Positions 13,125 through 63,918 of a stretch of DNA of 64,000 nucleotides are shown in pieces. A program made the position numbers and the translations under genes. Source of the stretch: Hydractinia symbiolongicarpus (Eukaryota; Cnidaria; Hydrozoa; Anthoathecata; Hydractiniidae); contig NC_079888.1 in the NCBI RefSeq assembly GCF_029227915.1, positions 1,752,501-1,816,500 on the forward strand. The letters are read 5' to 3'. Below the pieces are notes generated by a model, which saw only the letters and a list, made by a program, of their open reading frames with translations, had not been told where the DNA came from and ran no database searches. The first letter of the stretch is position 1, and every line of letters begins with the position of its first letter.

Positions 13125-14240
13125 TTACAAAACTTGTGGGTAAACAACATTTTTAGTATAGCATCTATCTCGTACATAACCCTGCTGTTGTGCATTGCAT
13201 ACCTTGACCTTGACATGTCTAAGAGCGCGAGCTCTTAAAAAGGCAACAAAAAGTTGACCATGGCTAAAGCAACGTCTGCGAAGATATATTCCAACTTTTT
13301 CAAAAGTTTGACCTTGACTTTTGTTTACGGTCAAGGCGTACGAAAGACGTAATGGAAATTGAACACGTTTAATTTGAAATGGCAAGTTAGTATCATTGGG
13401 AGCAAGTGCAATGCGTGGAATTAGTACACGATTACTTGCAGCAATCCCAGCAAGAAGTTCACAATCAAGAACATTGTCTCTCATGTGGCAAACAACTACT
13501 TTTGTGCCATTGCACAATCCATTTTTTAGGCTAAGATTTCTTAAGAGCATTACAATACACCCGGATTTCAAATGCAACATGTGTGGCGGCATATCAGAAA
13601 GCGTAATGCTATTTAAAAACTCCATAGGATACATACCAAGTTCTTCAGGGTCGTCTGAAAGAACTGAATCAATGGAAACATAAGTTCGCGTTTCCCCGGG
13701 AAGTGTTTTTAAAATGAGGTCATTAATTTCTAGAGCTTCATCATTTGTTGGTGTCAAAATAACACGACTCCTAAAATCAGCTGCTGCAACATCCCCAAAA
13801 ATAGCTTGAATGCGGTCCTCATTGTGTTGAAGGACACATTCAGGAGGCATGCAGCCGTGCAGTGGATCATCGTGCTTTACAGGTAGCCTTTCATCGCCTA
13901 ATTTAAGCCACCAATTTGCAAAAGCTTCCTCTTGTAGCCCTACCCTCATTTTGGTGCGGAGATGAAAGATCTGGACCGTGCGCCATATAACAGAACTTCT
14001 AAGACAAACCTCCACCACTTGTGCTGGTCGAGCACGGGAAGAGTTTGCCTGAAATCACCACCTAAAAGAATAACTTTTGCTCCAAAAGGAGGGTCGTTAT
14101 CGCAAATGTCTTGAAACATTCTATCGATAGCTTCAATTGCATGTTCAGGTATCATACTGGCATCGTCAAATAACGCAGTTATAAGTAAAGGTTTTGCCAG
14201 TACCTCCTGGGATATCGAGAAAAAAAAGGTAGCTTGCTGA
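13125..14240 (-). pseudogene. Helitron PIF1-like helicase domain
   Basis: Walker A is intact as FFLDIPGGTGKTF (GGTGKT bases 14190-14207). A stop and frame change follow within about 20 bases, and the next frame opens at FDDASMIPEHAIEAIDRMF, the Walker B region (usual DEAPM, here DDASM). Usually some 60 residues lie between these motifs, so motif Ia and its surroundings were deleted. Then come GGDFRQTLPV (motif III), LKSGCIVMLLRNLSLKNGLC, and motif V/VI YALTVNKSQGQTFEKVGIYL and SHGQLFVAFLRAR; the last normally reads VALSRAR. The frame 14018-13125 carries the C-terminal half. Confidence 0.9.
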
Positions 14241-15999: not shown

Positions 16000-17600
16000 A
16001 ATTACAATTTGAATAATTACAAATTATTTGGTGCCCAAAGATTTTGAGATGATGTCATCAACTCGTCCGTTCGGAAACTCTTACTGTTAAATGAGAATGA
16101 TATACCCTCGAAAATAAATTTCTCCCGTGGTTTGATTTAATCGGCTCTATACGTGTAACACAGGAGTGACAAATTTAACACTTTTCAAATGCATTGTTTT
16201 TTAAAGAATAGCGTAAGTCCGGGTGAAGTGATTTCTCAGTCAGCTTTTATGAACATAAGTAACCCACGCGGAAAATAATCTACGTCGTTAGGTATATTAT
16301 TTTACATATAATATTCAATTGTTTTAAATAATCAATTTACTGCCGAATTTTAATAAACCTAATACGGAGAACCTTAATAAGACATTCACGGATGTTTTTG
16401 CTCCACAAGAGAGATACTTTATTTTTTCCAAAAATACAGAGCGTCGTCTTCTTTAATCGCACGCAAATAAGTTGTTGTTCAAATGTGAATTTAATGTGAC
16501 ATATTGATGATAAGTTGGTTAACTTGCCATCGCTCATTTTTGTTTATTTTTTATTTCGAACGAACGAACATTCTAGTGATCATAATCTGCATAGAAACCT
16601 GGACTGCTAAAACTCTAAATACACACATTGCTACACCACAAGCAATATTAAAAGAATGTGTTTTAAGTTGCAGGTAATTCCGGATGATGGGAACTATTCT
16701 TTCCTTGCATTTTACATTTTTGGTTGATTTTGCCAAGTTGCCTGTTAAGGTAAACTTCCCTTTGGAAATGTTATTAGAATAAAATTTAATGGCAGGATGT
16801 GTTTCCCGTGGACAAAAATTATTGTTTAAAAAAAAATCGGTCTTAGGCCCTATTTCGGTGCTCTATATGCCGAATTTCAATTGTTATTTTCTTCAAAGAA
16901 TTGCTCTATATGCCGAATGAACGTAGAACACAAGAAAACAGATATAGCGTTACTTTTTACTTAAAATGTTTAAGCTCAAGACAATTATACACCACTGAAT
17001 TCATCTTTTTACCAGATATTCTAAACACTAGGAAATAGCTACTTTTCAGTTCTAGCGTAATTAGTCGTGAATTACTTTTATCAGTTTATAAGTTAATTTT
17101 TTATGGCAAAAAAATAGTATGTACCTGATTTTAACGAGGTATCTTTTCTCGTGTATTAAATTAGGTTTGTATAGAATTTAACTAACCATGATAATGAGAA
17201 AAACAACCAAAATAGTCTCTTTATTTTTAAGTTTCCTCGATTTATAGTAGAACATCGTGAATAGGTTTCTTTTCAACATAATCAGGTGAGAGGCCAATGA
17301 ATTAAGTATAATTTGGGTTTCATATTTATTACGGGTGTGATACAACAAACGAAAATTAAAAAATAGAAATTAACAAAATAGAAAATTCTTTCCAATATTT
17401 ATGGTGGTATCCTCTCTCAACATAAAAACATAACCTTAGACCTGGGTAAAACTATCGCAAATCGGCAAAGATGGTAGAAATCTATGTGTGTATGTAAAAA
17501 TGCAGCTTCATGCAACAATCAACCCCATCCGAATACCATTATGAAACCGCATCGGAGGAAAAGACTAGTAAGTAGTATAGGAGGGACAAGAAAAAGTAAA
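16000..17600. other. No gene seen
   Basis: AT-rich intergenic DNA. GCTCTATATGCCGAAT occurs twice, near 16860 and 16903, as a short direct repeat. No coding signal. Confidence 0.5.
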
Positions 17601-17614
17601 CAGGCTCATTTACA

Positions 17615-18330
17615 ATGGAGTTCGATATGATAAGCAAGATGAAAGTTGAAGAATTAAAAAAATATTTAAGAATGCGAGGTTTCAAGGTGTCTGGAAGGAA
17701 GTGTGAGTTGGTGGCAAGGGTATCTTATGCTAGTGAGAACAATGTAGAAGTGGTAAAAACTGCAGTGCAGGTAGAAGAGCAGTTAAACGAAGAGTATATG
17801 AGCAAATTATTAGTTGAAGATGGTGTTTTGCCTGACCCAATGGACATTACTTCTGGATGGTTAGCGGAGGAAGACGGTGTATCGTTTTGGCCAATGACTA
17901 CATATGGAAATATTTTTAATTATTCAACCTTCACTCCTAGCACACTGGGGAGTGGCGACCTAAACGATTACAAAACAAGCAAAGCATATAGCGATTTTAC
18001 AAATGGTTGGCTAGGATTAATAATGTGCCATCCAACAGACGAAGATTCAAAGTACTGCTTTTTAAAAGGAGATTGTAGGCCTTCGATTAAATGAGGGTAT
18101 GCGTTCTGAAAGGAGACAGTAATCGGATTATGGCACAATGCACCTGCATGGCAGGAATGTCCAAGACGTGAAACCATATTGCTGCACTTTTGTTTCGAGT
18201 AGATGCTGCAGTAACAGGTAGGCTGACAAATCCATCATGCACAGCCAAAGTGTGTGAATGGCTACCTAACTGAAAAGAAGTCAGACCACAGAAAATGATA
18301 GATTTAGTTTTAAACAGAGATTAAATGAAA
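17615..18330 (+). pseudogene. SAP-SWIM part of a SAP-SWIM-YqaJ family gene
   Basis: The open frame 17615-18094 (159 codons) starts with a SAP-like DNA-binding helix pair (MKVEELKKYLRMRGFKVSGR, residues about 9-30) followed by a family-specific region with DITSGWLAEEDGVSFWPM and DLNDYKTSKAYSDFTNGWLG. After a stop, codons continue recognisably to about 18300: CTCMAGMSKT, stop, NHIAALLFRVDAAVTGRLTN, PSCTAKVCEWLPN. The CxC...NH pattern is a SWIM zinc finger in which the third Cys position is now a stop. Genes with this layout are common and multicopy in invertebrate genomes and end in a YqaJ nuclease, found here at 20690-21075. The insert between them breaks the gene. Confidence 0.8.
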
Positions 18331-21621: not shown

Positions 21622-22080
21622 CACTATTCGGTCCAGGGGTTTTCCAACATAACATGACCGGGCTGGACTCGACCGACCTACAATAACGTTTGATAGTCTA
21701 GTCTAAAATAATAGAAACTTGGCACACTTATGGTACGTCATAAGAGGAACTAGATAGTACCAATAAATATGTCTGCATTTTTCCATGCCGTCATCATAAT
21801 CTTAAAAGTTGCCCTAAATTCCCAATTTGTCTAAATATCTCCTTAAATTACTTAAGTTGTAGAGCGATTTTTTACATATTCTGTTTAATGTTTCTATTCA
21901 AAAATGGCGCACAAATAAGAAAAAATTGATTGATTTTCCGTTTTAAGTAATCGCCAGTATCTAAGGCCCTAAAAGGTTTAGAACCAGAAAATTTGGCATG
22001 CAGGTCTAATAGTAACTTTCAATTGCACCTTGTTACTTTATATATGTTACAAGAACACCTTCAATACGTGCGAGCACATT
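21622..22080. mobile_element. TTAA-flanked MITE, copy 1, right end lost
   Basis: TTAA at 21618-21621 is followed by CACTATTCGGTCCAGGGG, the left terminus of the family seen complete at 24228-24965. Shared internal stretches include CTTGGCACACTTATGGTACG and GGCATGCAGGTCTAATAG. The right terminus is missing. Confidence 0.8.
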
Positions 22081-24223: not shown

Positions 24224-24227
24224 TTAA

Positions 24228-24965
24228 CCCTATTCGGTCCGGGGTTTTTCGCACATACTATGACCGGGGGGCGGATTCCGCCCCCCCCCCTCATAACTTT
24301 TCATAGGGTTGTTCAAATTGAATCAAACTTGGCACACTTATGGTACGTCATAAAAGGAACAAAATGGCGCCAAAAAAAATTTGCTTGCGTCAGCAGATTT
24401 TCTGTGACGTCATCAAAAGCTTGAAAATTGTTAAAAATGCCACTATCTCCTTAAAATATAATTACTTTTGTTCTAGAGCGAATTTTTACATTCTGTTTGA
24501 AGTTTCTGAAAGCTAAATAAAAGTTATTTAACATATCTTCCGGTTTTTACATGGATCGGATGAAAAATTGCCAAAAATTGCCCGAAAATCCGTTTTTTTC
24601 CGATTTTTGGGTAAAATCCGACAAGATCGGGAAATCGGATTAGTCACGTGTTTAAATTATTTCAAATGATTCTTCTTGATGAAACAAAGTTGTGTTGCAA
24701 CTTTCAAGTTCTATGGATAATCCTAACAGGAGTTATTTTATTTTCCCCATTATAAGGATTTCATAGAGATTTTTAGGGGTAGTTTCGAGTAATGGCCAAT
24801 ATCAAAGCCTCTGAAAGGTATGGGACCTAAAAAATTAGCATGCAGGTGTCTAATAGATAAATGTTAAAACTCAGTAGGTATCACAGCCATATAACAAAGC
24901 AATCAGGAGTTATTAAAAAAAAAACAGTCAGGGGGGGCGGAATCCGCCCCCCGGACTGAGTAGGG
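24228..24965. mobile_element. Complete 738-bp TTAA-flanked MITE, piggyBac-like ends
   Basis: TTAA at 24224-24227 and 24966-24969 flank inverted ends CCCTATTCGGTCCGGGG (left) and CCCTACTCAGTCCGGGG (right, complemented). Near each end is a GC palindrome, GGGGGGCGGATTCCGCCCCC type, capable of a strong hairpin, unlike the AT-rich interior. No open frame. TTAA target plus CCCT termini are typical of the piggyBac superfamily, but Kolobok also uses TTAA. Confidence 0.88.
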
Positions 24966-25065
24966 TTAATCAACGGTTTGAGTATGTTATTTTTATGGTA
25001 TATACAAATAAAATGAAATACACGATGATATACATGTAAATAAAAGTTGTGCAATCACTTTCTAG

Positions 25066-28000
25066 AGCCGTCGTATTGCCGGCATCAAGTCGTTTAGCGA
25101 AAGCTACGAAAAGAAAATGGTATATGTAGAACGGAGTTTTTTTTTTTTGTTTTAAAATGTACTATCTTCGTTATTTACTCTCGGTAACTCGAACCTTCAC
25201 GAGACTTTAAAGCAGTTCAAACTATTGAAAGTTCGAGTTGTTGAAAATTTTGGTGAAGCAAGGAAGACTGTGACAGGTAAATTCTTAAGCTCTTTACCTT
25301 TTATTATTTTTTGTGGAAAAATTCCAAATTGTCAATGCAAGACAGTGAATTTCGTTCCCATGTGAACCGAAAATAGAGAGGTCTTAGTGTCGTTATTACA
25401 TCTTCATCTTTTTGTATTTTCACTTTAATAAATTCGGCAATGATATCACCATTATTTGAGAATGAAGCAGATGTGAACACTTCGTCATCCATGTCAGCAA
25501 ATTCTATAGCTGACAGATTATTTATTATCCAACTTGTGCAAATTATTAAGTCCTTCCTACAAAAATTTCCTTTAATACAGCTGAATGTTTCTAACAGCAA
25601 GAAAACAGTTAACACCAAGAAAATGGTGAAAATCCTTTTAAACAATTTTCAAAATGCAAATTTGACAAAAATGATATTGTATTTTTACCTTTTCTGGCGT
25701 TAGTTGAGGTAAGGATCCGATGCCTTTAATTTTGAAGCCAAATGCTTATGCAAATTCTACGGTTATGATCCCATTAACGGAAATTTTTTTAATTCTTTTT
25801 CAAACAGTTTAGTTTCTTTAGCAATGATTGAAAAGAAAAGGAAATCAGAGACAATCAAATAGTTTTACCAACCGAGATGTTTGAGTTTTCGAGTATTTGA
25901 GTTATAGAGATCTTTTTAAACCTGAAACAGGTTTGTAGTTTAAAGACCGACATATGTGTGAGTTATCAAAAGTCAACTGTAAGTTCAAAGAATTCATTTG
26001 TAAGGTCTAACTAAAAAATATGTTATTATAAATAACTATTATAAATAAGCGGAGTGTGTATAATATGAAACTGCAAGAAAATATTTTTATCCACAAGAGG
26101 AATAAATTCTTGTTACATGACCTATATAGCGAACACAATTACTGCATTTATATTTATTTTTTGATTTTATTTTTATTTTAGGGCGAAGAAAAAAAATGTA
26201 ATTACTCCGCCAACTTATTTGTTGACTTTTTTTACTAAATTTGCGCGACGCAACCAAGAGGGTTATTATAACTTTTATGTAATTTCAGATGGTGACTGTG
26301 CCGCGGAAGCCGACATTAATAAAAAGAAAAAAAGAAAAAGAAGAATTGGAGGAGTTACATCATACGGTGATGAAACAATCTTTTTTTTAAATTACTTTTT
26401 TTATGGCATCCATCTGTCACTTTTATTGAAGTAACGTGGATTCTTGCCACAAACCCGAATTACAAGCCTGAGTTTAAAAACTAGGTTTTTACTCCACTTC
26501 TTCCTTTTTTTAAAAAGAACAATGTATTTGCTGTATGCTAATCCACTAAACTTGAAAAGCAGCAACAGGAACTTTTACAGTCCGCAGCGAATATTTTGCG
26601 CGTTGTTTGGATAATGAACAAAAACCAGGTAGCTAGTAGATAGAAATATGTAACTCAAATTAATATGCTAACTATATTATAAATAAAAAATTAATTCGTA
26701 TATAGCAAACTAACAACTGGTCACCATTACCAGAAATAGACTTGTTAGAGTTATTTTAGTCATTAACCTATCTTGATTAACCTATCTTGATATCCCAGTT
26801 TTCGCAAATCATAAAGTGCTCTTGTATAGTCATAAAAAAGATCACAACGGGATGTTGCTGCTGGAGGCGTATATATATAATATCAATACATAAATATCAC
26901 ACATATTAAAATGTTCTTGACATCCGCATCATTTTCTTAACATGCTTCCTTTAGTCGATTTTTGGATAAAACGGGGGACAAAATTTGTCCTGAAACTTTC
27001 GGATGGCTTGATAACAATAGCTGCACCAACATTATTAGAAAATTTTAACCATCTTTTGATGCTATTTGCAAGTATTGTTTATTTAAAACTTTAAAACTTA
27101 TAAAATACAGTGGAACAAAGCAAAAACACAATTTTTGCAACAACCACGCCAAATTTGCCAGTGGCGAGTAAATTGAAACGATGTATTGTAAACCTCTATA
27201 TATAATAGCCGGGTTTATACAAGTTAATACGATTTTTTATGGTGAGCGTTCTTATACGCAAATGAGCTTGTGCACAAAAAACATTACCGGTCACTTAAAA
27301 CAATGAGCTTAAAATGACGCGTCTCTTCTGGTTCTGCTATTTTGTATCTTCTTATATCCCACTTTATATCGTACCTCTTTAAAATTTGCTATAAAAAAAA
27401 TTGCTTATATAGAGAGAGCTTATACTTGTTTTGTTTGTAGAGGTTTTCACGAAATAAAAATTTCTACGATCAACAATAATACAATGCAGTTTAATAATAG
27501 TTTTTTGGGCGATAAGCTGAAATTGTTGAACGTTCAACGAAGAATATCATAGAACCGCAGAAGGATCATGCGATTAGGTTGCACATGTGCTGTTTCGGGC
27601 CATGAAAGTGTCTTTCGTAGTTATATTTTGGTAAGTAAAGCCATTACGCCCACAAGACATAACCTATATTTTTAAAGTTTATTTTTAATGAAATACTGGA
27701 TATTTATTTATAAAAAACTGTGTTTTTCTATTTAACACCATGAATAGGCAATGCACATGATTTGACTTATGGTCCGCGTTCTATTAAGAAAATGTGACAA
27801 ATGGCCGCCATATTGTTCTGATATGTTTCTATTATGTTATGGTGAGCTAAATATTACACGAAATGTGTTACACAAGAAAATAACGCGAATTTCAGAAACA
27901 CACGTTAATTAATGTATCGCGTAACTTTCGCCTGTATAGTGTTAAATACCCCGCTAATTTTATCCAACTTTAATTTTCTATTTAAACGTTAAAAAATGTT

Positions 28001-31000
28001 TACAATTACCTCTCGGGGTCCAGGTTGATAAAAAATAACAACTGATAAATTGAACTTTTTGATTTAATTTTCTCCTTATAGATAATTTTAAGAGGGTAAA
28101 ATTATTGCTAAAATCTGAAAAGATTCTAAGCGATGCATTTAAGACAGGAAGGATGCATGTATTACCAATACCTTGGAAAAGGCCAGGAAAAGTCTTATCC
28201 AGGTGTTCTTTAATGTTGTTAAAAAAAACTTCGTAAAGAAAAAACATTATCTCTTGCCTATGTTTGGCTACACTGAATTTTGCTACAGGGTATTCTGCAA
28301 TAAGAATGCGCGTTAGCTACTACACATCTTTACCTGGAGTGCGATTTGCCTGTATTTTTGATCGCGAAAATTGTTTGTGCGTATTATCTTTCCTTGTACA
28401 TTTCGTGTAATAGACGAAATAAAACATTTACCTTAAAATATAATTTCTGAAACATAAAACACGAAATTTAAAAAGAAGAATATATAATATATAACGTTTA
28501 AAGTGTATAAATCTTCATATTTTAGTTGGGTATGGGTTATTCGAAGGATTCCTTTCGATTTAGAACATTTTTTTATATAATTCAAATTTCATAATTTACA
28601 ACGCAATTATATTCTTATTTGTATTTTTTGTTATTCTTCTTTGTGTAGATTGCAAGGTTAAAGGAAGAAATGTAAGTTCATATAATTTACGACTCCAGTT
28701 TTTACCATTCATTTATCCTATTTTCTGCTGAATTACGTTGTTAAATCACACTGGGTGCAATAACTTTGATTTCGCCTCTAAACAATTTCTCATTGGCTTG
28801 TCCAAATTTAAACAAACTTGGCGCACTTATAATACGTCACAAAAGAACAAAAGAACAGCATTAAATATTTGCCAAAAAGTATGCAGAAGTGTTTTATTTG
28901 ATGACAGCAGGTTGGGGTGCAAGTTTAAAGTTTTAAGAATAATAAAGTAGAGTTTTTATATTTTCCCGATTATAAAGATTTCGTAGACATTTTGTAGCGT
29001 TAGTTTTAAGTAATAGCCAATATCAAAAAGCCTTTGAAACCTATGGGACCTAAATATTTGGCATGCAAGTGTCTAATAAATAAATATTGAAACTCAGTAA
29101 GAACTATAGGCATGCAACATAGCATAAAGGATTTATTAAAAATAATCGTCAGAAGGGGCGGGGGGGGGCAGGACCGAATAGGGGTAATTTTCCAATTTTG
29201 TTGTTACGCATGCCTATGATGTACCATTTCACTGACTGCTTTTCCTCGTTTTGTAGTAACGAGAAAGACGAAGAAATAGAGGAGCTGGTAATTATATTAA
29301 CTTTAAATCACCTGATATGTTTTACGACATTTTTCATGGCAGGGTTTTAAAATTTAAAATTTGAGATACAATTTGGAAATTTAAAACGCGCTAAATAATT
29401 AGGAAATAGAATAATTACGTATTTAGTGTAACCATGCAGATATTTTTTTGCTATTGTTACACTAACCTGGAACGAAAGCTGGCCTGTGCTAATTTAAAAA
29501 TATATTTTATTACCTTCTTATCGAAACAGTTATTAAAACCTTTTTAAAAACCATTCATAGGAAAGCTAATTTTCCACTTTCGTATAATATGTCAAATATA
29601 ATAATATATAATAAATATAATATAATATATACGTGTATATAGTGCCTCTCTGCGCGCTCTAATATTGATTGTACCGTAAAAGGAAGTACCGCAACATTTT
29701 TATAGAAGGCAACAAGAGACAACCTGAAAAGGTTAAACAACAACAACGGTATGTTTACTTTTTGTATTGTTAAAGTTTAATCGTTTTAACAGGAATTGAT
29801 TTTTCCATCCAGACACCAATGAGACAGGTTTTTCTAGACTAACTAGGTTTGATTATGCTCAAGAAAAACATTCCGAATGTGATTGGCTTACATGAGAGAC
29901 AAAAAATATATTTCATATATGCAATATGCTCATAAACCTGATACTTACATGTTTTTTTACCGAACCGGGCATATTGGATATAAATTATTAATATATTGAA
30001 ATCTCCAAAACCCCTGAAGTAATATATGCTAATAAAGCGGTCGGAGTTTTAAAGATTACTCATTCAAAACTCCCGTATCAATGTTTGCATTGAACAAATC
30101 CGCAAAAGACACACTAAATCAGAAGAAAATCGGGGAGATTTATGTTATTCGTTTACGTTAAAAATCTTGAACAGTAATAATTCGGCTAGTGTCAGCGCAC
30201 CCAAATTTTCTGATTTTTAACATCTCTACCGGCCGTAATGCTTATTTTACCACAATGCAAGTAGCGCAGCTTCGATGTTACTTACTTGGTTTACACCACT
30301 GTCAAAGCAAAGCTTTGCAGCCGGACGAATAAGTACTAGAACTATTGTTTCTGCACATATAGTGTCTCGTATGATTATCCTCATCGCTGGCCATATTTCA
30401 CAAGATGGTAGATGTTGTTTAGTGTGATTTATTAAAAAAGTCATCCTTAGAATTAAAAAATTTATAGGAGTAAAGAAAATCGGATTTAAAATTGCAAATT
30501 TCTGAATTTAAAAAAAAGTTTAAAGAACTTACATATCCAGATCTTTCGTAATCCTATTCGTGATGATTCAGCCCGATACTCCTCTTAACCTTTTTTTAAT
30601 AACTCTTTATGTGTTTATAGTTACACCTTCATTTTTTGTGACTTTTCCTAACCCTTATTTAGCTTTCTTTCCCACCAATTTTTTTTGGAATTATGCCGCA
30701 GTGTTGGCATAACAACAGTTTTTTTATGTTGATTAAAATTCTTAAAATTTTTTTTTTACTAAAAAGTGTTATTACATGTTTTCAATAGCTGTGACTTCTT
30801 AGTTCAAATTGTTATATTATTTTGTATTTCTATTATTATTGTTTCTAAATTAATCACAATTATACAACAATAAACAAAATTCAAAGTTAGTGTTTTTTTT
30901 TATATGTCACCGAATTTGATGACGTCGGCACCGAAAATGCTGACGTCATCAATTGTTTTTTCAAATTAATACCTGGACAACACTTGTGGAAAGTTACAAG

Positions 31001-34000
31001 TCCAAAGGACAACAATTGTAGAAATTACACAAGGGGTCGAATCACCCCCCTCCAGCATTCAGGAGCCCCTAATAGGCCGAGCAGGAATAGAGTTAAGGCA
31101 AATCTTGTTTGATCAAATCATATTGTAACCCAAGTAATTAAAACACTTATATTTTAATTTAGAAGAATCAGAAGAAGAATCTAAAAGTAAGTAAATCAAC
31201 TTATTAGCTTCTTTTTTTAAAAGAAGGATTTAAAACGACATCAGAGTTAATTAATAAATAAAATGACACCTAAGTTAGTCTTTAAGGCGACAACTTCTTT
31301 AAAAACTTGTCGAATCAATCGTAACGCACTTTTACATTAAGGGTAAAGTTTTACATGTTTCGAATATTTATCAATCTGATTTTTAATTTTAACCCAGTTT
31401 GGTATGTGCTTTTTTGACCTTAAAAGTACGATTTGGGGCATAAAGTGTATTTACAGTTTGTATAACATATGTTCCATTTTAGTGAGCTTAGTATGGTTGT
31501 TTTGAGAATTGTCAAATACGTTATAACATCAAAAGGTAGAGTCAAAGGAAAGGCTGCCAGACATTAAATTATTAGTAATCCTAACGTTTTATAAAAATTC
31601 AGTAAATTTTAATTTACGCAGGCACAATACCGAATAGAGTTAAATTGGCTATTCCGCAAAAAATAAATAAAAAAATAAATAAATAAAAAATAAAGTAAAT
31701 AGTTGTTACTCATCAAAATGTTTCGTTCGAGTTTCGATTTGATATTTAATATTCGATATTTGAGTTGATAAATAAATTGTTGAAACAAATTTTCATGGCA
31801 AAAAAACGTAAAAAAGATTTTGAAACTTAACACTTACATTGATTTTATTTTTGCTAGCCGTAACAGAGTTTTAGTTGTTCATAAATAAATGAAGTCTTAT
31901 AGAATGACGGGTAAAAAAAGATACATTGGTTAGAAATTAGAGACTATATTTTTTTAAATTAATCAATTATTATGGCAGCAACGATTTTAATGGATTTGTT
32001 TTATTTAGACGGAATGCAAGAAAACTTACTTCGAGGTTAGATAACATCTATTGTTCAGAATAACATATATTGTATTTACAGCTTGAACAAAATAATAAGT
32101 AACATTGTTTCATTTTTTAGTAAGAACTCCGATCCGGATAAGTAAGTATGTTTAAAACAAGATAAATCTCGCAAAATTAAGTCTGAAAGACTTGGACTGA
32201 TCCTTCTTAATAAAATGGTCATTGTTTGCCAGTAACACAATGAATCATAACATTTTGAAGAAACCTTATACAACCTGGTATTTCATAAGAGCAAAGTGAG
32301 TTTTTCAATCAAAGATTTCGGATTGCTTGTATCTTGTGTGGTACATTGCCCTTAACGTTTTGTGGTACATTGCCCTTAACGTTTTTTCATAGGTTTGCTA
32401 CTGTCCACAAAGCGCGACCACTTTACATAAATGTTTGAAACTGAATTTCCAATTGAATTCAATTTGAAAATTGCTTACCTCTACGCATGCATTCGAAGTC
32501 TGCATTTTCCCGAAAATTGCCCGGTTACCGCGGTAAATTATAATAAACCATGTGACCATTAGTCAAGAATCCCTTTTTTGATTCGACATTTGACATAGGC
32601 ATCATAGTGTTCTGCTCCTATCTTTGTCAAGACAGCATCTGTCAACTTTTATTGCATAAATATTTACCTTTCCGTTTAGATCCAGTGAATTGGAATGGTA
32701 AGATCTTTTATTCTGTCACTTCAAAATAGTGATCCCAGAGAACCTTCTCCTTCATCCCATGTTAAATTTAAACACACCTTAAATTTTAAATTAAGAACGA
32801 ACGTTTGTTTTCTACATTTTCAACCAAGTTTATTCTTGTGAATTTGACGGGTGGGCGTTGATGTTGTGCGGATAATCGCCGTTGAGCAAAAAAACCTTTT
32901 TCATCGTCTTCTATTAAAATTCTATGTTTAATAAGGGGTAAAAAATGTCTTATATAATGTAATTTTTAAATACACCAGCTCCTTAATGTTCTTTCATTTT
33001 TGTTATAGATCAAATACCGCCCCCGCCAAGAGGTAATTTTTTGTTACATTTTGTAAAATATGGATTATTTGATGACGATTAAATTTAATTCAATTTTTTG
33101 TTACTCTCAATAGAACTATTCGGGGAAATTACTGTTGAAAGTAAGTACCTTTACGAAACAGTGTTTTTACCTTGTTTTGTTTCTGTACTTGTGCTAACGT
33201 TGGTTAAAAATATTTTTGTGTAACTGGTAGTTACACCAGTATTGCAGGTCACGATTTTGTACTCTGCAGATCAACTCTACAATGTCAATATTGACAGAAT
33301 GAAGTCAGTTACATATATGATTGATACATGTATTTTCAACTTATACGTATCTTAAATTCTGGACTTATTAGCAACAGGCACTTCATGCCTTTTATAGCAG
33401 AGTTAAGTTTTTCTTCAAGCAACCGCTATAAATGTATTTATGTGTTTTAGATGAAATTCGTAAAAAAAGTGGGAAAGGTAAGCAACTATTTCTTTGTCTT
33501 CTTCTTCACATTACGTAGAAATACACATAAAAAGTTAGAATTATAATAAAAACGGTCGTAAAACTTTTTTTTTTAATTTAGAAAAAGTTGGTCCAGCAAG
33601 GCCAGGAAGTGAGTTGTTATTTTGTTGAACATCTCTAGTGTGCGCAAACATAAATTCACAATGTCAAGTAAATCTTCTTACCACTCTGTCAAGACCAACT
33701 TAATGAAATGAAATTTAGGTTACTTAGGACATTTTTTATTGCTACATATGTTGGTTTCTTAGCGAAAATAGTTTTTGTCAAAACAATACCTGAAATTTTC
33801 GTATCTCCAAGTTCTAACTTTCTTATTCGAAAAGTGTTTTGTTTCTACGCTTATAATGTAAAATTAACTTTTGTAACGGAAAAGGTGTATTTGCGAAAAA
33901 GGTTTGCCAATACTTCAAAATATCTGATATTTAATGTTAATTTAAATTAAGGGAGAAAAAAAATGAAAACGAATAGACCAGAAACTTTTCTTTCTTAAAA

Positions 34001-36457
34001 AAGTAATTTTCTACAAAAAATACGTGACAACTGGAAAAAAACATTTCAACATCGAACCTACGTTCCCAGACACACCTTTTGCAAATATAAGCAATGGAAG
34101 TTTACACATGGGCTTTACGGAAAGTTTGTGCGTAACAGAACTCTCTTCAATTTATATTTTTCTGCAATAGCAAAATAGCGAAATATAGGTGTCAGAACTG
34201 AACATATGTAATGTTGTACTAAATAAATTGCCCTGAATTTCTTACAGCCGTTACGCGCGAAAAATTATGTGTGTGCTTTGCCCGTTTTATAACATACTGT
34301 ATTTCTGTACTAAAGTTCTCCATCTAGATGTGTGGTACAGCTTACGGCTTAAATTTGGCGCTTTTCGAGACGTTTAAATTCGGTTCGCACAGTTACTTGC
34401 TGTTCACCTTGTGTTTTGACGCGTTTGTCTCTATAATAATAGCCGTCGTCTGTCTGTCTCTGTTAGAAAATGATGTTACGGAAACACGAATATCAAATGC
34501 GATATATTCTTATCCACTTTTCTGCGATGGGTAAATATAATGGACGGGCGAACCCGCGGATTTTTGCACAGGCTAACGACTATTTCTTTAATAATAGCCG
34601 TCGTCTGTCTGTCTGGGGGTCCGCGAAAGCCGTGTCCAGTAACGGAAACGCGAAATTTTTAGAATGCGCACCAATACCAAATGCGATATATTCCTGTCCA
34701 CTTTGTTGCAACGGGTTAATTTATAGGACGAGCGACCCCGTGGTTTTTTCCACGGGCTAACGACTAGTATTATATAATACTCGCTGTCAGTCTGTGAGTT
34801 AATTTGAAGACAGGGGGATTAGGCAGTCTCATACATCATTATAATCGCACCTGTGATCATAATAACAACCCCCGTCGAAGTGACTTTTATTACTTCATGG
34901 TTACAGTCAGTAATTATGCACGAAATATCAATGCGGAAAATGTGTAAACTAACAATTTACTGTGGAATCTTCTGTGGATTAACGACTAGTAACAAAATAT
35001 TTTTGTATCAGATTTTCGAAATATCACATGATTGAGAATAACAATTACTTTTTATGATATTTTTAGCTACAAAACAACATTTATCATCAGCTGATGTTAG
35101 CGAAGATGGTAGGTATTTATGTATAATCAAGGAGATGAACAAAGTGTGTCAACAAACTAAACGATTCGTTTTAAATTTTCTGTATATTTTATAGTGGCGA
35201 TGTTTTCTGAAATATTAGTAGATTTTTGTTTTCTTTTGATGCGTGAACTAGAAGAAAATCAGAAAAACGGCAAAGACTAACAAAGTTCCAGCTAAGTCAA
35301 ACTTTTAGACATTCTCGCGTAAAAAGTAACGGATGTGTAGTTGCTAAGAAACGGGAATGAAGAAAAGCTTTCCTTTCTTAAAATCTAGATTGAAAAATAA
35401 AAAATTGAAAATAAAAAAATTTAGATTGGTGATGTAAATTCTTTTTATATGCTACTGTTAATTAATTTAACAAATTTTTTTTTAGACATGCCCATAAAAG
35501 AATGGCTAGGTACAAAAACTATCATTTTAAATTTTACTTTTTCTAATCTAGCGCAAAACAAAACCTTCTGGTATCACTTAGTCCGTCATTTTCATTGTAA
35601 ATCAGTTTAAATATATTTCATATTATAAACTCTGCACAGAGATATGTCGAACAACAGCGAGGTGTTACTTAACAAACAAAGAAAAGAAAGTTAATAATTG
35701 TTCAACAAATTTAGGATACTGAATAGTTCAAAGCTATTTTGAAGTGTGTGTGATGTGTGTGCATCAGTCGAGGTGAAGTATAAAGATAAAACAAACTTAC
35801 ATGTGAACTTTTAAAGCAGAGTTAGGTTCATTGACAGATCATATACTAAGCATTATCTGATACTCGGCTTAAAATTGACCAGTTGACGATCCCGTGCTTA
35901 TTACCAGTTTACGTAGTGTCGGAGAAAATGAGTGTATTCTTTCCTCCAAGATGTATCCAACTTATTATTGTTTTGCTCGGTCTGTACTTTTGACCTCGGG
36001 CTTTGTATTTTACAGTGCAACATCAAAACTGGTCAGTATCCGTTAAACACCGTTTTGTTAAAACGTCTTTATAAACAGTCCAAGCTTAACTTTTATTTTC
36101 ACTAAATGGAGTCATTATAAAATTTTGGATCACATTTCTACAAAAAATAAAGCCCTGTAGTATTTTAACTAAAAAATGAGGTTAATGGTTATTGTTTACA
36201 TTGAGCGTCGTCGCCGTTAAATATTGGACATCCTTATTTTCCGATCAATGAAATAGTTTCTTGAGTACAAACTCTAACGTTTCTATGTATCTAATGTTAA
36301 TTCTTTATTTTTTAGCTCTGCCAGCCAATATCACAATTAAAGGTATGCTTTTCCTCTCATACACTTTATTAAAGCAGCGTAAATTTCTAACCATAACATT
36401 CATTTCTATATCTTGTTTTTATATCTTATAGACGAACCAACCTGTTCGAAATTCTAA
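25066..36457 (+). CDS. Microexon gene: coiled coil plus phase-1 microexon series (5' end missing)
   Basis: Eighteen exons with AG acceptors and GT donors: 25066-25119, 26182-26197, 26289-26366, 28649-28671, 29257-29287, 29706-29748, 31163-31186, 32009-32035, 32121-32141, 32680-32697, 33009-33032, 33114-33140, 33451-33477, 33582-33608, 35067-35108, 35486-35509, 36316-36342, 36432-36457. They total 559 nt and stay open as 185 codons plus TAA. Domains: AVVLPASSRLAKATKRKW, basic VPRKPTLIKRKKEKEELEEL, coiled coil RLKEEINEKDEEIEELKATR, acidic EESEEESK. Then come ten phase-1 exons of 18-42 nt (NGMQENLLR, VRTPIRI, DQIPPPPR, ELFGEITVE, NEIRKKSGK, EKVGPARPG, and others) and a terminal exon ending DEPTCSKF. 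The polyproline and charged pieces suggest an adaptor-like or disordered tail. No signal peptide or TM segment seen. The first exon is not identified. MITEs and short Helitrons sit in its introns. Paralogous exons lie at 55960-56127 and 63242-63918, minus strand. Family unknown; expression unproven. Confidence 0.72.
25304..25645 (-). CDS. Small secreted protein, intronless, unknown function
   Basis: A 113-codon frame starts MFKRIFTIFLVLTVFLLLET, a classic signal peptide: basic start, hydrophobic residues 5-18, and likely cleavage near residues 22-24. The mature part of about 90 residues has Cys at 29, 36 and 103 (plus C23 at the cleavage region), and charged stretches ADMDDEVFTSA and KVKIQKDEDVITTLRP. 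AATAAA overlaps the stop region on the minus strand, a possible polyadenylation signal. It lies within the first visible intron (25120-26181) of the plus-strand microexon gene, so the two are nested and opposite. No family recognised. A chance frame is possible, but the signal peptide argues for a real gene. Confidence 0.6.
   Translation of the reverse strand: MFKRIFTIFLVLTVFLLLETFSCIKGNFCRKDLIICTSWIINNLSAIEFADMDDEVFTSASFSNNGDIIAEFIKVKIQKDEDVITTLRPLYFRFTWERNSLSCIDNLEFFHKK
28741..29183. mobile_element. TTAA-family MITE, internally deleted copy
   Basis: Same family as 24228-24965: shared CAAACTTGGCGCACTTATAA-type and GGCATGCAAGTGTCTAATA stretches. The right end GGACCGAATAGGGG is followed by GTAA, not TTAA. 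The left terminus is degenerate. It sits in the intron between exons 28649-28671 and 29257-29287 of the microexon gene. Confidence 0.75.
30593..31094. mobile_element. Degenerate TTAA-flanked MITE, second family
   Basis: Between TTAA motifs near 30589 and 31093. The left part (TGACTTTTCCTAACCC, TAATAACTCTTTATG) matches, reversed, the right part of the complete element at 49510-50333. Two GATGACGTC/GACGTCATC motifs near 30918-30950 form an inverted pair. Intronic in the microexon gene. Confidence 0.6.
31393..31490. mobile_element. MITE end fragment, second family
   Basis: After TTAA at 31389-31392 comes CCCAGTTTGGTATGTGCTTT, then GATTTGGGGCATAAAGTG, matching the left end of 49510-50333. No right end found. 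Confidence 0.65.
32337..32386. repeat. 24-bp tandem duplication
   Basis: TGTGGTACATTGCCCTTAAC followed by GTTT occurs twice in tandem. Intronic. Confidence 0.75.
34283..34429 (+). mobile_element. Fragment of Helitron family 2
   Basis: ACATACTGTATTTCTGTACTAAAG and following bases match the 3' region of the copies at 43690-44674 and, reversed, 51330-51975. It lies immediately 5' of the short Helitron array that follows, in the intron 33609-35066 of the microexon gene. Confidence 0.6.
34430..34583 (+). mobile_element. Short non-autonomous Helitron, tandem unit 1
   Basis: Begins TCTATAATAATAGCCGTCGT with CTGTCTGTC repeats, ends with AACCCGCGG, a weak hairpin and CTAACGACTAT, a decayed CTAG end. 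Confidence 0.72.
34584..34767 (+). mobile_element. Short non-autonomous Helitron, tandem unit 2
   Basis: Starts at the next base after unit 1 (TTCTTTAATAATAGCCGTCG), ends with the 7-bp-stem hairpin CCCGTGGTTTTTTCCACGGG (34737-34756) and CTAG (34764-34767) followed by T. This is the hairpin plus CTRR layout of Helitron 3' ends. Confidence 0.82.
34768..34850 (+). mobile_element. Short Helitron, tandem unit 3, 5' part only
   Basis: Follows CTAG directly with TATTATATAATACTCGCTGT and CAGTCTGTGAG, the family start pattern. No 3' end found. Confidence 0.55.
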
Positions 36458-38260
36458 TAATTGTATCCGGTGAGTTAAGAACTACCTCTCGTTATCTGTC
36501 TTTGATATGCCATATCCCTTGACGTTGCTTTTCGCAATATATATGTTAGCTATATGAAGAAACTTCGTAGCGCTTCTTTTTCGTAGCGTTTCTTTTTGTT
36601 TATAATCAGTTTGATTGGGCATTTTCACTATTTACCTTCGTTAATCGCGTTATACCAAAGTGTTTGAGATCGGTTATAAGTCCATGTCGTTAACAAATGT
36701 TTCGCAAAAAACTAACATTAGGCAATGACTTTTATTCTGAATTAGCTAGTTGGCAACCACCGTTGAACTCCAGTTTAAGTGCAAGTGCAGCTGAACCATG
36801 TCATACATCCGTGCGTTGAGTCCTTACATCAGTGCGCCCTGTAAGCGGGATACTCTTTTTCAAAAAAAGCTTTATTACAACTTCAATTTAAATAAAAACA
36901 ACCCTAACAGATTAAGCATAAGAACGATTATTTAAAAAATATGTAGCAGTCAACTAGCTACTTTCACGTTTTGGCTAATAGCTAGATCTTCACAACCCCA
37001 GTTGCAGCTGGGTAAAAGTAAGATTGATAACACACACAAAAACTGGTATAAAAAGTTTACCAAACTGAATAAAAAACCTTAAAATATTATCAATGCAAAG
37101 GTTACTTAGTTAAAATAATCCATGGAAACTACATAGTTAGCACAGTTTTAAAATCGGTTTTACATTGATACACGGCTGTATTCTTATCCGAATAATTTTT
37201 ATTCCTTTTGTAAATAAAACTCTATTAATTCTTCGCTGATAAAGACAAGATAGCTGTCCCTCTTTTCTGCTCTAACGCTTCAATGTCTGTCCTGCTTTTT
37301 TAGCGCGCCATCGCAAAAAAGAGAATAACCTACCGTAGAAATTGCAACTGCTGCCTTAGGGTTCTTCTTAGACATATCTTAGACATATTATTTTTGACTT
37401 AAACAGTTTTTTATGACTAGGTTAAGTTTGAACTTTAAGTCTGTTCTCTACGATGGCTCACTTCTCTTCTTAATAAAAAAACTTTTCTTGTTAAAGGGGC
37501 TACGGGATGGCTGTTAGTTTTCGACTTACACGAAAGTTGAACTATGCCAGCGAAAAACAACTAGCTATTTTTCCGGCATGTATGTAATTTACAGACTCAA
37601 ACATATAGATATATCTAGAATTTTTATCTTCCCTGGCCTTGGTCATGTTTTCATCCAGAATGAGTCTCGCTGAAATGTTTCTTTGTAATGTACTTTTCAA
37701 AAAAAATATTGAACCAGCGAACAAGGTGCGCTGGTCTGTTCATTGCGCAAAACGGGTTTGCCGGATTCTTAATATGTGCGCGGGATATACGGAATGTGAG
37801 CACTTTAACAGGGTCGTTTTTCTTTTCTCCGTAATCTTCTCTTCCATTTAAAATACTTCTCTTCAAAAGTGAGACGCACTTCTCTTCCAGGAACTTAAAA
37901 AGCTCCCAGACTCAATTCTGGTACAGAATATTGATTAAGCTGGATTTTGATAACTCAAGTTTTTGAAAAAATGACAACCCTCGACCCCAGGCATTTTTTC
38001 CCTTTCCGAAATATAATGGATGGTGAAAACCCCTGCGGACAAGGATGAATAAATGACATACCGGCCATGAAAAAGATTTAGTGTTCTTCGTAATTAATAA
38101 CTCTCCAAAATATTTTGTGTGGTGGACCACTACACATACTTCAGATAAAAATATATTGTGGTATTCCGTTTGAGACGTTTCTTTATGCTTTTCAATACAC
38201 ACTTATTTTATAAATTCAAACCACACCAGGCTGGTCAGTATTCTTATTTTTCTTTTCTTC
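36458..38260. other. No gene seen; 3' flank of the microexon gene
   Basis: After the stop a good donor context (CCG before GTGAGTT) occurs at 36470, so an intron in the 3' UTR or an alternative last exon is possible. An unused-looking 16-nt segment 36016-36031 between good splice sites lies upstream. No further coding supported. Confidence 0.4.
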
Positions 38261-55959: not shown

Positions 55960-56127
55960 CATTTTCCTTTTGTAGCTTTCGCTAAACGACTTGATGCTGG
56001 CAGCAACACTGCCTCCGTTTCTAGAAGAAATTATAGTTTAAAGTTATTAAGAACTTTGAAAAACTGATTATAAAATAAAAGTAAATTACATAAAATTTTA
56101 CTTACCAAAAAACTTCAATAACTTCAT
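55960..56127 (-). CDS. First two exons of a paralogue of the 25-kb microexon gene
   Basis: Exon 56127-56106 reads MKLLKFF and ends in phase 1 at GTAAGT. After an 85-base intron, exon 56020-55960 reads ETEAVLLPASSRLAKATKGK and ends TG before GTATGT. The second exon matches 25066-25119 codon by codon: over 17 codons there are five synonymous changes and two replacements (L/V, G/R), so this is the coding frame and it has been under constraint. Downstream exons (basic, coiled coil) are not recognisable to the left, so the copy may be truncated. Confidence 0.6.
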
Positions 56128-59500: not shown

Positions 59501-62500
59501 CAAAACTTTTTTAAAATACAGCTATTTTCTTTTTCAAGTGCTATTAGTTTTTTTCTTCGAAAATGCGCACTCAAGTATCCTAAAAACATATTACATGAAT
59601 GTCTGTGTGAAATAAGTATAAAGCCAGCAAAAACACGTTCGGTAACAATTGAATATCCAAATACTATCTATTGGTTGCCGAAACAAGTGAATTATGTAAT
59701 AAAGAGAAATCTTACCCTTGGCAAATGCACCTGGAATTCGTAACGTCGGCGCTCGTTATCTCAACTGCTCGTTCTCTTGAACTTTCTTTATCTCGGCCTA
59801 TTCTTACGGTCCCTTAAGTACATTTTATTACGTTATCTCGACATTCTCTGTAAACCAAACATTCGAACGTGCGAATTTCTCAAACTTTCTCAAAATCAAA
59901 ATTTGAAAAAAACCTACCCGAGTTACAAGAAAAGGATCCTAACTTGTTACATAAAGAGTTAACAGCAGAGGAATTTGTTCACATTGAATTTCAGGTTATC
60001 GCAACAGATAACCTGTTCACAGATGAAGAAATTATTTAATCTGTAATACACGTAGATGACAAAGAGGGTCAGAATAAAGATGACAAAATTAAAGTGTATG
60101 ATTAACCCATTGTAAAGCCATTGAAAATCATGGTTGATGCCGCCATAGAAACATTAAGAACTTCTTCCCTTTTAGCGGCAACGGCAACGACATGCACTCT
60201 TCATTACAGCGTTTAGAATACTTTTTAAATAAGGAAAGAAAGCAAAGGAAAGTAGTATTTTGAATTTTTTTAATTGATTAAATACATATAGTATGAGAAT
60301 AGTAATAATTAATTTAAATAATTTTTCTAATGTGTGCATGACATTGACAAACTTTCCTTATCTCGACATTTCTCACGATTGACGTTTCTTATCTCGACTA
60401 TCCACCATCTCGAGCTTTGTTTACCTTGACCTTTTTCACCATTCCCGTGGAAAGACCAACACACTGCAAATTCGTGTCATGTCTCAACAAATTTCTTCGT
60501 TATTTTTGTATATAGAACAAGAGATTAACCGATGTTTAATGAAGAAATAGTATACTATGGGAAAGTTGGAAACTGACGCACTTGTTTAGCTATTAAAATG
60601 AAATTAAGAAACATGGTCTGTCTATTTTTTAATGAAGCCTACGCGACTTTTAATTATTTTGACGTCACGCATAATTTCTATTACGAACGTTTTAAACCAA
60701 TTGAATTTTGACCACATTGAAGTGTTTTGTTTTTTCGAATAAATCAAAGTGTTTTAAATAAAAATGTCTTAATATTCTACGCGAAAAACGTCATGCATGA
60801 TTGGTGAAAAGAACCAATTAAGAAATTTAAAAATAATATTTACAAATTTATCGGCAACTTTTTAAGGTCTTTCATATAAAATCAACTTGATTTTTTACGG
60901 GGAGGAAAGCTTCAAACTCACACAATTCATTTATATAATTACTTAGAAAATAACTTGAAGAATTCATCAAAAGTTCAGTTTTTAAAAGGTTTTTTGAGAA
61001 AAAAGATACGAGAGAATACTGTAATTGTTTACCAACCAACGTAATTGCTTCTTGTAAGCATCAATATACAATCAATCAATATACAAACTACGCCGAAAGT
61101 GTATACATCTAAATAATTTTTACTTACCACTTAAACTAATGTTGGTGATTCTATAAAAATCACTTTGTGTTTTCTAAAAAGATTTTATATAAATTTATTA
61201 AAATTCACAGAAGAAATTTTATTATTTGAGTGCAGCAACAGTACGATAACAAAAGGTTATTTACGTCAAAGTATTGTTTCCACGAGAGACACTCCATGTC
61301 AATTTGCGTTTTAACGAGAGACTCAGACATTTTCATATATCTTACTAAGGGGTACGGATGGACACAGACGCATCTGGAAACGGACGCAGTCTCAGAACTT
61401 TTTCATCTCATAATGTTAGACACCGGCAGCTTGTCGCCCCATCTAGAAGGAGGAATACGTAATGTAGTAAATAGATATACATATATATTAAAGTGGATTA
61501 AATTAAAACAGAAGCATACCCATATCCGTGTAATGCTCTTCAACTAGAAACATAAATTTATATAAGCTGATAAGAAGAAGAAATCATAAACATATAGATG
61601 TATAAGTAAGTGGTTTAATATCTCCAATTTTAGAAGGTAGGTTTTGCGTAAAATTTACAACTTAACGTAAGGTAATTTGAGGTTTAAGTATCAAATGCTG
61701 ACATTTTATCTATCACTGAGCATGAGATATCATATGAACTACCTAGCAGTGGACAATCTTGGGAAGCAGGTGACCAGAATACACTTTTTTCGAATTAGAT
61801 TAATTTTTTGTAAAATCTTTATCAGTTCTCGAGATAATTGTGTTTCAAGCTGCGCTAATTGTGCGAAATTATGACGTCATAAACCAGCATTACGCATAAT
61901 TATAGTAACTAAATATTGAAATTTATGTAAAATATTCAAAACGCGTTGAAGTGAAAAGATTTTTAACTCTATATGGCTTGTCAAAATGTTATATATAACA
62001 CCCTCGCAGACCAAACTCATGACATCATGCATAATTAGTGAATCTTCTTAGTCCAAATTCTAAAGAAGCAATCAAGAATTTTTAAAAAAATGTGTATAAT
62101 ACCACCAAAAACAGCCTTAATATGGTCTTAAGATAAAACAACAAAATTATAAAAATCATGAAAACACCATGGAAATTCTGGTAAAATGCTACGTAGCTTA
62201 GCGGTCAGTGCTTACAACCCGTGTGACCACCGAATGAAAACTAGAAATTTTGACTGGAAAATTTTTTGAACCGATTTAATATAACACATATACAAAAAAA
62301 TTATATTTCGTACCATTTTTCTCCTTTATCCAAAAATCTAAAAAATTAAAAAATTAGACGTGTGGCTAGTTCACGTATAAGTATTTGAAAAGTCGTATAA
62401 TATAATTTATGACGAATTTAATTCTTTTCTCCACGTTGTGCTTTCTGGTACGTAAAGGAAAAAACAATATTTTAATCACATTTCGCGAATGTTGTTCTGC

Positions 62501-63188: not shown

Positions 63189-63602
63189 GTTGTTTATATC
63201 TAGCGTCTATTCTTCAAGTTGATACAATATATATTACTTACCATCATTTTCTAAATCATCATCAGACGATTGGTCTTTCTTGCAACTAAAAAGTTGTGAA
63301 ATAATGCGTAAATAACTAACTGTAAAGTTGTTTATATCTAGCGTCTATTCTTCAAGTTGATACAATATATATTACTTACCATCATTTTCTAAATCATCAT
63401 CAGACGATTGGTCTTTCTTGCAACTAAAAAGTTGTGAAATAATGCGTAAATAACTAACTGTAAAGTTGTTTATATCTAGCGTCTATTCTTCAAGTTGATA
63501 CAATATATATTACTTACCATCATTGTCCAAGTCGTCATCAGACCATTGATCTTTTTTTGCAACTAAAAAGTTGTGAAATAATGTGTAAATAACTAACTGT
63601 AG
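63189..63602. repeat. Three tandem 138-bp repeats
   Basis: Units at 63189-63326, 63327-63464 and 63465-63602. The first two look identical; the third differs in the middle (CATTGTCCAAGTCGTCATC against CATTTTCTAAATCATCATC). Each carries one minus-strand microexon with its splice sites. Confidence 0.9.
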
Positions 63603-63918
63603 TGTAACGTGTCTTTTAAAAAAGTGTTGATAAAATGACTTAATTATAGGGCTCTGACAGGTATGGTACCTTTCATTTAACATGCAGCTGTCTATATTAG
63701 ATAATTATATAAAGCATTAACAAGCAAATAACAAAAAGAGAATCGGAAAAACTAGTAATTACACAAAATGTTAGCCTTTTTCTATTTTATTGTATCATTA
63801 TTATTATTATTATGTTGTGTTTTTAAGCACGTTTGATTGCCTCCATATTTAAAATTTCAATCTTTTTAAATTTAATAAAAAAACAACTTACTTTTCAGGT
63901 GGGCAGGGCCAACTACCT
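63242..63918 (-). CDS. Partial microexon gene: VGPA exon and three QWSDDD-type exons
   Basis: Minus-strand exons: 63918-63892 (27 nt, VVGPAHLK, before GTAAGT), 63562-63518 (45 nt, AKKDQWSDDDLDND, phase 1 to 1), 63423-63380 and 63285-63242 (44 nt each). The first resembles exon 33582-33608 (EKVGPARPG) and the second resembles the next exon, 35067-35108 (TTKQHLSSADVSED), so order is kept. The two 44-nt copies lack one base of the T/A run, so in the phase of the third they meet a stop; read one base off they give KKDQSSDDDLEND. The gene would begin beyond 64000. Downstream exons not identified. Confidence 0.5.
63650..63715. mobile_element. Scrap of the first TTAA MITE family
   Basis: CTCTGACAGGTATGGTACC then ACATGCAGCTGTCTA matches the right-hand interior of 24228-24965 (GGTATGGGACC, GCATGCAGGTGTCTA). 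Confidence 0.5.

Follow-up and report, generated by a model that had tools for sequence, protein, structure and literature searches.

In the colonial hydroid Hydractinia symbiolongicarpus we found a gene, gene A, that is read from 18 short exons and is very probably a real coding gene. By homology it belongs to a microexon family on one chromosome, and we lean towards the reading that it encodes an intracellular coiled-coil scaffold whose tail could be varied by exon skipping. The analysed stretch of DNA, called the window throughout, comprises 64,000 nucleotides (C14:1752501-1816500) of the source assembly HSymV2.0 (PMC10411563), and the genome searched comprised 481 Mb in 76 contigs. Table 1 gives the positions for gene A and for genes B and C, counted from the first base of the window.

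The preliminary description had reported one continuous frame across 18 exons without an exon list, and the coordinates used here were rebuilt from the sequence. We obtained 18 AG..GT segments from 25066 to 36457; once joined, they leave exactly 185 codons open before a TAA. As the number of segments, the 185 codons with TAA and the end at 36457 agree, we take this to be the model that had been described. The joined segments comprise 559 nt, the 185-codon frame is read from base 25067 and the two remaining frames are full of stops. The description had also noted that every internal exon from the acidic one onwards is a multiple of three in phase 1, and this was true for all 11 exons from 31163 to 36342 (24, 27, 21, 18, 24, 27, 27, 27, 42, 24 and 27 nt). 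Donors at 25119, 26197 and 35509 are weak. A strong donor at 36470 directly follows the terminal coding exon, so that an intron in the 3' UTR after 36469 is possible.

Alternative structures were considered and not adopted. If 36016-36031 is included constitutively, the frame is lost. A version with 17 exons, without 26182-26197 and 36016-36031, has introns of 81-2282 nt but yields 180 codons and reads the first segment in another frame. For the first exon we also rejected the reading SRRIAGIKSFSESYEKKM in the first frame, because the copy in gene C differs there at 3/3 residues and because the inclusion of 26182-26197 gives exactly 185 codons.

Table 1. Exons and exon candidates of genes A, B and C in window coordinates.
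Feature	Position	Strand	Remarks
Gene A first known exon, (A)VVLPASSRLAKATKRK	25068..25119	+	phase 1 in, phase 2 out; segment of the preliminary description starts at 25066
Gene A 16-nt exon WAKKKN	26182..26197	+	restores phase 0; weak donor
Gene A exon MVTVPRKPTLIKRKKEKEELEELHHT	26289..26366	+	first in-frame Met; coiled coil begins
Gene A exon IARLKEEI	28649..28671	+	coiled coil
Gene A exon NEKDEEIEEL	29257..29287	+	coiled coil
Gene A exon KATRDNLKRLNNNN	29706..29748	+	coiled coil end
Gene A acidic microexon EESEEESK	31163..31186	+	first of 11 symmetric phase-1 exons
Gene A microexon NGMQENLLR	32009..32035	+	
Gene A microexon VRTPIRI	32121..32141	+	
Gene A microexon NPVNWN	32680..32697	+	aligned with PVDWDD of LOC130625998
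Gene A proline-rich microexon DQIPPPPR	33009..33032	+	
Gene A microexon ELFGEITVE	33114..33140	+	
Gene A basic microexon NEIRKKSGK	33451..33477	+	
Gene A microexon EKVGPARPG	33582..33608	+	aligned with EVIGPAHLK of LOC130625998
Gene A acidic microexon TTKQHLSSADVSED	35067..35108	+	aligned with IAKKDQSSDDDLEND
Gene A microexon DMPIKEWL	35486..35509	+	aligned with DFWIKE of gene B
Optional 16-nt segment	36016..36031	+	good splice sites; outside the 18-exon model; C-terminus becomes VQHQNCSASQYHN if included
Gene A microexon ALPANITIK	36316..36342	+	
Gene A terminal coding exon DEPTCSKF, TAA TAA	36432..36469	+	first stop 36455-36457
Gene B exon GKRKGK	64048-64031	-	just outside the window; precedes the EVVGPAHLK exon
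Gene B microexon EVVGPAHLK	63892..63918	-	
Gene B microexon AKKDQWSDDDLDND	63518..63562	-	
Two tandem 44-nt copies of the AKKDQWSDDDLDND (AKKDQ) exon	63380-63423, 63242-63285	-	out of frame; lengths by eye
Gene B microexon FWIKEKN	62314..62337	-	
Gene B microexon VEEHYTDM	61520..61543	-	identical to LOC130625998
Gene B exon DGATSCRCLTL, then stop	61408..61442	-	diverged from DGATSSRFLTP of LOC130625998
Gene B exon with a match to DFYRITNISLSGK, the C-terminus of LOC130625998	61120..61173	-	
Gene C possible first exon MKLLKFF	56106..56127	-	ATG, then canonical donor; by eye
Gene C exon TEAVLLPASSRLAKATKGK	55960..56020	-	near copy of the first known exon of gene A

The low chance expectation stated for such a chain is borne out by simulation. 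By dynamic programming with generic splice matrices we looked for the highest-scoring chain of short exons that leaves the frame open. At an exon cost of 12 bits the chain between 25 and 37 kb scored 64.7, more than any of 150 third-order Markov sequences (mean 20.0, sd 7.3, maximum 42.8), and the observed score again exceeded all 150 at exon costs of 9, 11 and 13. The best path at cost 12 has 20 exons and differs from the 18-exon model, with 12/18 exons recovered exactly and 4 sharing one border. It omits 25066 and 26289, the latter of which enters at two lower costs, and 26182-26197 is part of the best path at all four costs. The path also adds 4 segments outside the model, 36016 among them, which we do not accept as exons of gene A. 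Across 36 sliding 12-kb stretches on both strands of the window the five highest scores were all found on the plus strand (starts at 27, 30, 33, 24 and 36 kb). All five overlap gene A, the fifth (43.4) via its last two exons only, and the next stretch scored 41.5. As controls from real DNA we took the 40 strands of 20 ten-kb genome pieces, four of them immediate flanks of the window; at four settings the region 27-37 kb was outscored by 0, 1, 0 and 1 of them. The strands in question were L016, which carries a gene with longer exons, and L007, which together with L008 makes up the array of gene B described below. That gene A is nothing but splice-like motifs lined up by chance in AT-rich DNA is very hard to credit. 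Random sequence does yield long chains, with as many as 17 exons at the exon cost applied, but these are low-scoring, and both the Markov results and the similarity of the tail to an annotated protein speak against it. We regard homology as a better proof of the reality of gene A than statistics.

Two other genome pieces showed exon-like runs of their own. On the minus strand of L024 (C14:1.0 Mb) a 31-nt exon-like unit GATTGCTGGTATTCAGCG... occurs ten times and gives a high chain score; it is probably a tandem repeat. On the plus strand of L013 (985-2320; C1:25.0 Mb) there are short exon candidates with KKPVPTPR, RPVPAPRRAK and QPTPRPR, which resemble SH3-binding sites and possibly belong to a second, unrelated microexon gene.

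Protein searches were limited to candidates whose length was 0.55 to 1.75 times that of the query. With the product of gene A none of 161 candidates (about 99 to about 315 residues) matched, and with the gene B model a single match at E <= 10 was found among 5590 candidates, namely LOC130625998 (E 1.1e-19). This is an NCBI 'uncharacterized protein' of 102 aa from Hydractinia symbiolongicarpus and is located on the same chromosome as gene A. Aligning the tail of gene A directly with LOC130625998 gave a score of 76, which 0/5000 shuffles reached (maximum 49), and aligning it with the gene B model gave 89 (shuffle maximum 52). The alignment with LOC130625998 spans PVNWND through the acidic exon into the start of the next; because it crosses those exon borders, it supports the joins and phases of gene A from 32680 to 35486. 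The stretches PVDWDD, EVIGPAHLK and IAKKDQSSDDDLEND of the annotated tail follow each other in the order seen in gene A, as does, by eye, DGATSSRF, and we read the DEPTCSKF of gene A, eight residues long, as the likely counterpart of the latter. Judged by these alignments, gene A is a family member related to LOC130625998.

The profile search that had been proposed for the product found no Pfam family above the curated cut-off; the best matches lie below it and are typical of coiled coils. We rejected these Pfam matches, and likewise the PDB matches, as coiled-coil noise. Rfam gave nothing at gathering score. The earlier statement that no named family fits thus holds with respect to Pfam, but gene A is not an orphan, as it has an annotated, uncharacterized relative. 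Among the listed literature on cnidarian microexons or LOC130625998, nothing was recognised as this gene family.

Residues 85-102 of LOC130625998 are matched twice on C14, with ends at 1524172 and 1440245, both on the minus strand. The corresponding loci of 3 kb each (L035, C14:1522619-1525672, and L036, C14:1438692-1441745) are 84 kb apart and 98.5-99% identical over most of their length, a recent duplication of LOC130625998-type exons; against the 3' end of gene B they show 76-95% identity in pieces. We read the exon structure of LOC130625998 in the genome for its last four exons. Three exons (24, 33 and 23 nt) together with the last one account for the final 43 residues, and at both loci VEEHYTDM (24 nt), DGATSSRFLTP (33 nt) and YERHHLLD (23 nt) form separate exon candidates with good splice sites, followed by TAPDFYRITNISLSGK as the last exon. 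The 24- and 33-nt exons run from phase 1 to phase 1, and the 23-nt and last exons are not symmetric. As these C-terminal residues map to tiny exons, an independent annotation also joins microexons of this kind. NCBI gene models usually rest on RNA.

There are also differences between gene A and its annotated relative. LOC130625998 runs past DGATSSRF to DFYRITNISLSGK, whereas gene A ends at DEPTCSKF, and among the matches listed (E < 30) gene A has no DFYRITNISLSGK exon downstream on its strand. Unlike gene A, LOC130625998 has no coiled coil in its annotated 102 aa. It further lacks the FWIKEKN (IKE) stretch, which genes A and B carry as an exon; its absence may be due to skipping or to exon loss. 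At the DNA level, once simple repeats and a transposon-like stretch are set aside, the matches between genes A and B among the 25 best are short and weak, and one weak match falls in the intron after 33032. Because these matches are short and weak, gene A looks to be an older relative than gene B and the copies of LOC130625998 are to each other.

Gene B lies between 61 and 115 kb (window coordinates) of the minus strand, and its 3' end falls inside the window. Its 3' exons are homologous to the tail exons of gene A and are in phase 1. Upstream of this end, and just beyond the window, tandem array exons extend on the same strand from 115341 to 64777 (about 50 kb). We distinguished four kinds of 24 (or 18), 36, 24 and 45 nt, which encode SVSTSRV, PLDWEDTMNLP, NEEMEVG and KRKGKGLIGPEKLK, respectively. 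There are 63 copies in total and 43 of them are intact (AG, GT, no stop): 25 of STSRV (23 intact), 11 of PLDWEDTMNLP (10), 10 of NEEMEVG (8) and 17 of KRKGKGLIGPEKLK (2). For the last kind, the KRKG exons, 15/17 are without a GT donor, with AT in 13 and TT in 2 cases. Long matches between array units are mostly 95-98% identical including the introns, and shorter ones 84-98%; since the units are near-identical, introns included, the array is young or homogenised. Within one unit, three of the exon kinds together carry 9 substitutions over about 1007 sites, or 14 over about 1145 when the first is taken in its 24-nt form, compared to 0.0235 per site elsewhere. The rate within units swings from 0 to 0.089 across 30-base stretches, and many non-exon stretches are equally low. 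Because of this wide variation the lower rate in the array exons is weak support. An N-terminus of gene B was not found up to window coordinate 154000.

As the two 44-nt exon copies do not keep the frame and the DGATS exon no longer agrees with that of the annotated relative, gene B is at least partly decayed. Gene A could itself be a decaying relative of LOC130625998 from which functional protein is no longer made. We consider this improbable, even though its stop comes earlier than in the relative, a frame-breaking 16-nt segment is present, several splice sites are weak and the signs of decay in gene B (the out-of-frame copies and the KRKG exons without GT donor) are clear. What argues for an intact gene A is that 185 codons are open over 18 exons, although its introns align with gene B only in short, weak stretches among the 25 best matches, and that the GC content is 39.6% in the exons compared to 31.2% in the introns (17-exon version).

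Towards the 5' end, our search gave no convincing candidate for the first exon of gene A, and no convincing upstream coding chain was found in 16-25 kb. The first known exon is entered in phase 1 after an acceptor and hence requires at least one preceding exon if translation starts there. The listed exons might accordingly make up only the 3' portion of some larger gene, for instance the cytoplasmic tail of a receptor with its first exons upstream, and to our reading YTDM and PYERHHLL of LOC130625998 resemble tyrosine motifs of receptor tails. This explanation also seems improbable: gene A has no tyrosine, the upstream 16-25 kb are without a convincing coding chain and the first exon has a second copy, in gene C, with an ATG exon (MKLLKFF) within 90 bases upstream, which suggests a short N-terminus. 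The two copies are identical at 44/47 nt, and the match ends with the exon and four donor bases. With up to 3 mismatches allowed, the 26-nt core of the exon has only two copies in the genome, both perfect and 31 kb apart, in genes A and C. Read in the 185-codon frame, 3/4 differences between the two exons are synonymous over 44 aligned bases. The start of gene C reads MKLLKFFETEAVLLPASS; whether it contains a signal peptide was judged by eye alone. Neither a coiled coil nor a tail was found for gene C between 56200 and 36400, and gene C may be a fragment.

The window further contains several sequences of a transposon-like character. A short repeat at 24226-24968, also present near 21630 and at 28750-29190, has ends like accctattcggtccggg...gactgagtagggttaa by eye and is likely a non-autonomous element; one copy lies just upstream of the first known exon of gene A. 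At 17600-18094 on the plus strand lies an ORF of 164 aa that contains a SAP domain, has 26 relatives at E <= 1e-5 and looks transposon-associated to us. The ORF at 13125-14054 on the minus strand carries a Pif1 2B helicase domain; it and its neighbours as far as 16 kb resemble the remains of a Helitron split over several frames. On the same strand the ORF at 105-1343 has an integrase core, an H2C2 zinc-binding domain and DUF5641, and we read it as belonging to a BEL/Pao-like retrotransposon with more pieces extending to about 8.5 kb.

The predicted product of gene A is 38% charged. Its heptads LEELHHTIARLKEEINEKDEEIEELKATRDNLKRL cross three splice joins and 8/10 a and d positions are hydrophobic, a pattern that was matched by 132/20000 shuffles of the first 100 residues (17-exon version, in which this segment is unchanged). 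By eye the tail contains acidic motifs (EESEEESK, SSADVSED), a proline-rich one (DQIPPPPR), a basic one (GKEKVGPARPG) and IKE-type sites. We predict, at about even chances, that the product is a small coiled-coil scaffold inside the cell. Its N-terminal stretch, which is basic, would lead into five heptads of coiled coil, probably forming a dimer, and the coiled coil into a disordered tail with about one short motif per exon. Since the tail exons can be dropped or duplicated without frameshift, the set of motifs can vary; skipping or duplication would change their number and kind and leave the dimerising core untouched.

The preliminary description had interpreted the same layout as that of a gene that varies its protein by alternative splicing. 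The structural half of this claim is borne out, by phase-1 symmetry in 11/11 exons and by the duplication seen in the related gene B; the splicing half is an extrapolation from it, and we rate the use of skipping to vary the tail of gene A at slightly below an even chance. Alternatively, gene A is real and all its microexons are constitutive, their symmetry being a by-product of growth by exon duplication. Tandem exon duplication is plainly visible in gene B, and symmetry is simply what makes an exon harmless to duplicate. We nevertheless think this less likely, given that LOC130625998 is without one stretch that forms an exon in both gene A and gene B and that the segment at 36016 with its good splice sites would yield a second C-terminus. 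On the scaffold reading with a skippable tail, one could go further and suppose that a cnidarian family builds signalling tails combinatorially, combining a fixed dimerising core with one-motif microexons chosen from dozens in tandem, in a clone- or cell-specific manner. The array of gene B would then constitute a large repertoire and gene A a compact relative, but we regard this extension as a long shot.

Genes mostly built of symmetric microexons are known chiefly from schistosomes, where they are taken to diversify secreted proteins. If true, the hydroid genes would be an independent case and would offer an older compact copy, younger copies and an array on one chromosome, and the origin of such genes would become observable. 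It would also provide a testbed for whether the splicing of short-motif exons diversifies intracellular scaffolds. Gene finders may miss such genes, as only one annotated relative emerged from two protein searches with family members.

In schistosome micro-exon genes (MEGs) the coding sequence lies mostly in very small symmetrical exons, which allows splice variants, and all MEG products are said to have a signal peptide and the genes to be restricted to platyhelminths (PMC4350168). For gene A the corresponding share, carried by 11 symmetric exons of 18-42 nt, is 288/557 nt or about 52%, barely most of the sequence, and the host is a cnidarian. The schistosome comparison made in the preliminary description is apt for the layout of symmetric microexons and is an analogy of layout only. 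Hydractinia itself has the Alr allorecognition genes, described as encoding single-pass membrane proteins with polymorphic extracellular Ig-superfamily domains, mostly on chromosome 3 (PMC11067881, PMC11876637). Gene A does not fit this group by domain, as its known chain contains none above cut-off. The tandem exon copies of gene B are reminiscent of arthropod Dscam, in which one gene carries tandem copies of alternative exons. The Dscam exons, however, are far larger, encode parts of Ig domains and are chosen one per array. The microexon-gene layout was already known; here it is seen in a cnidarian gene family with a tandem microexon array.
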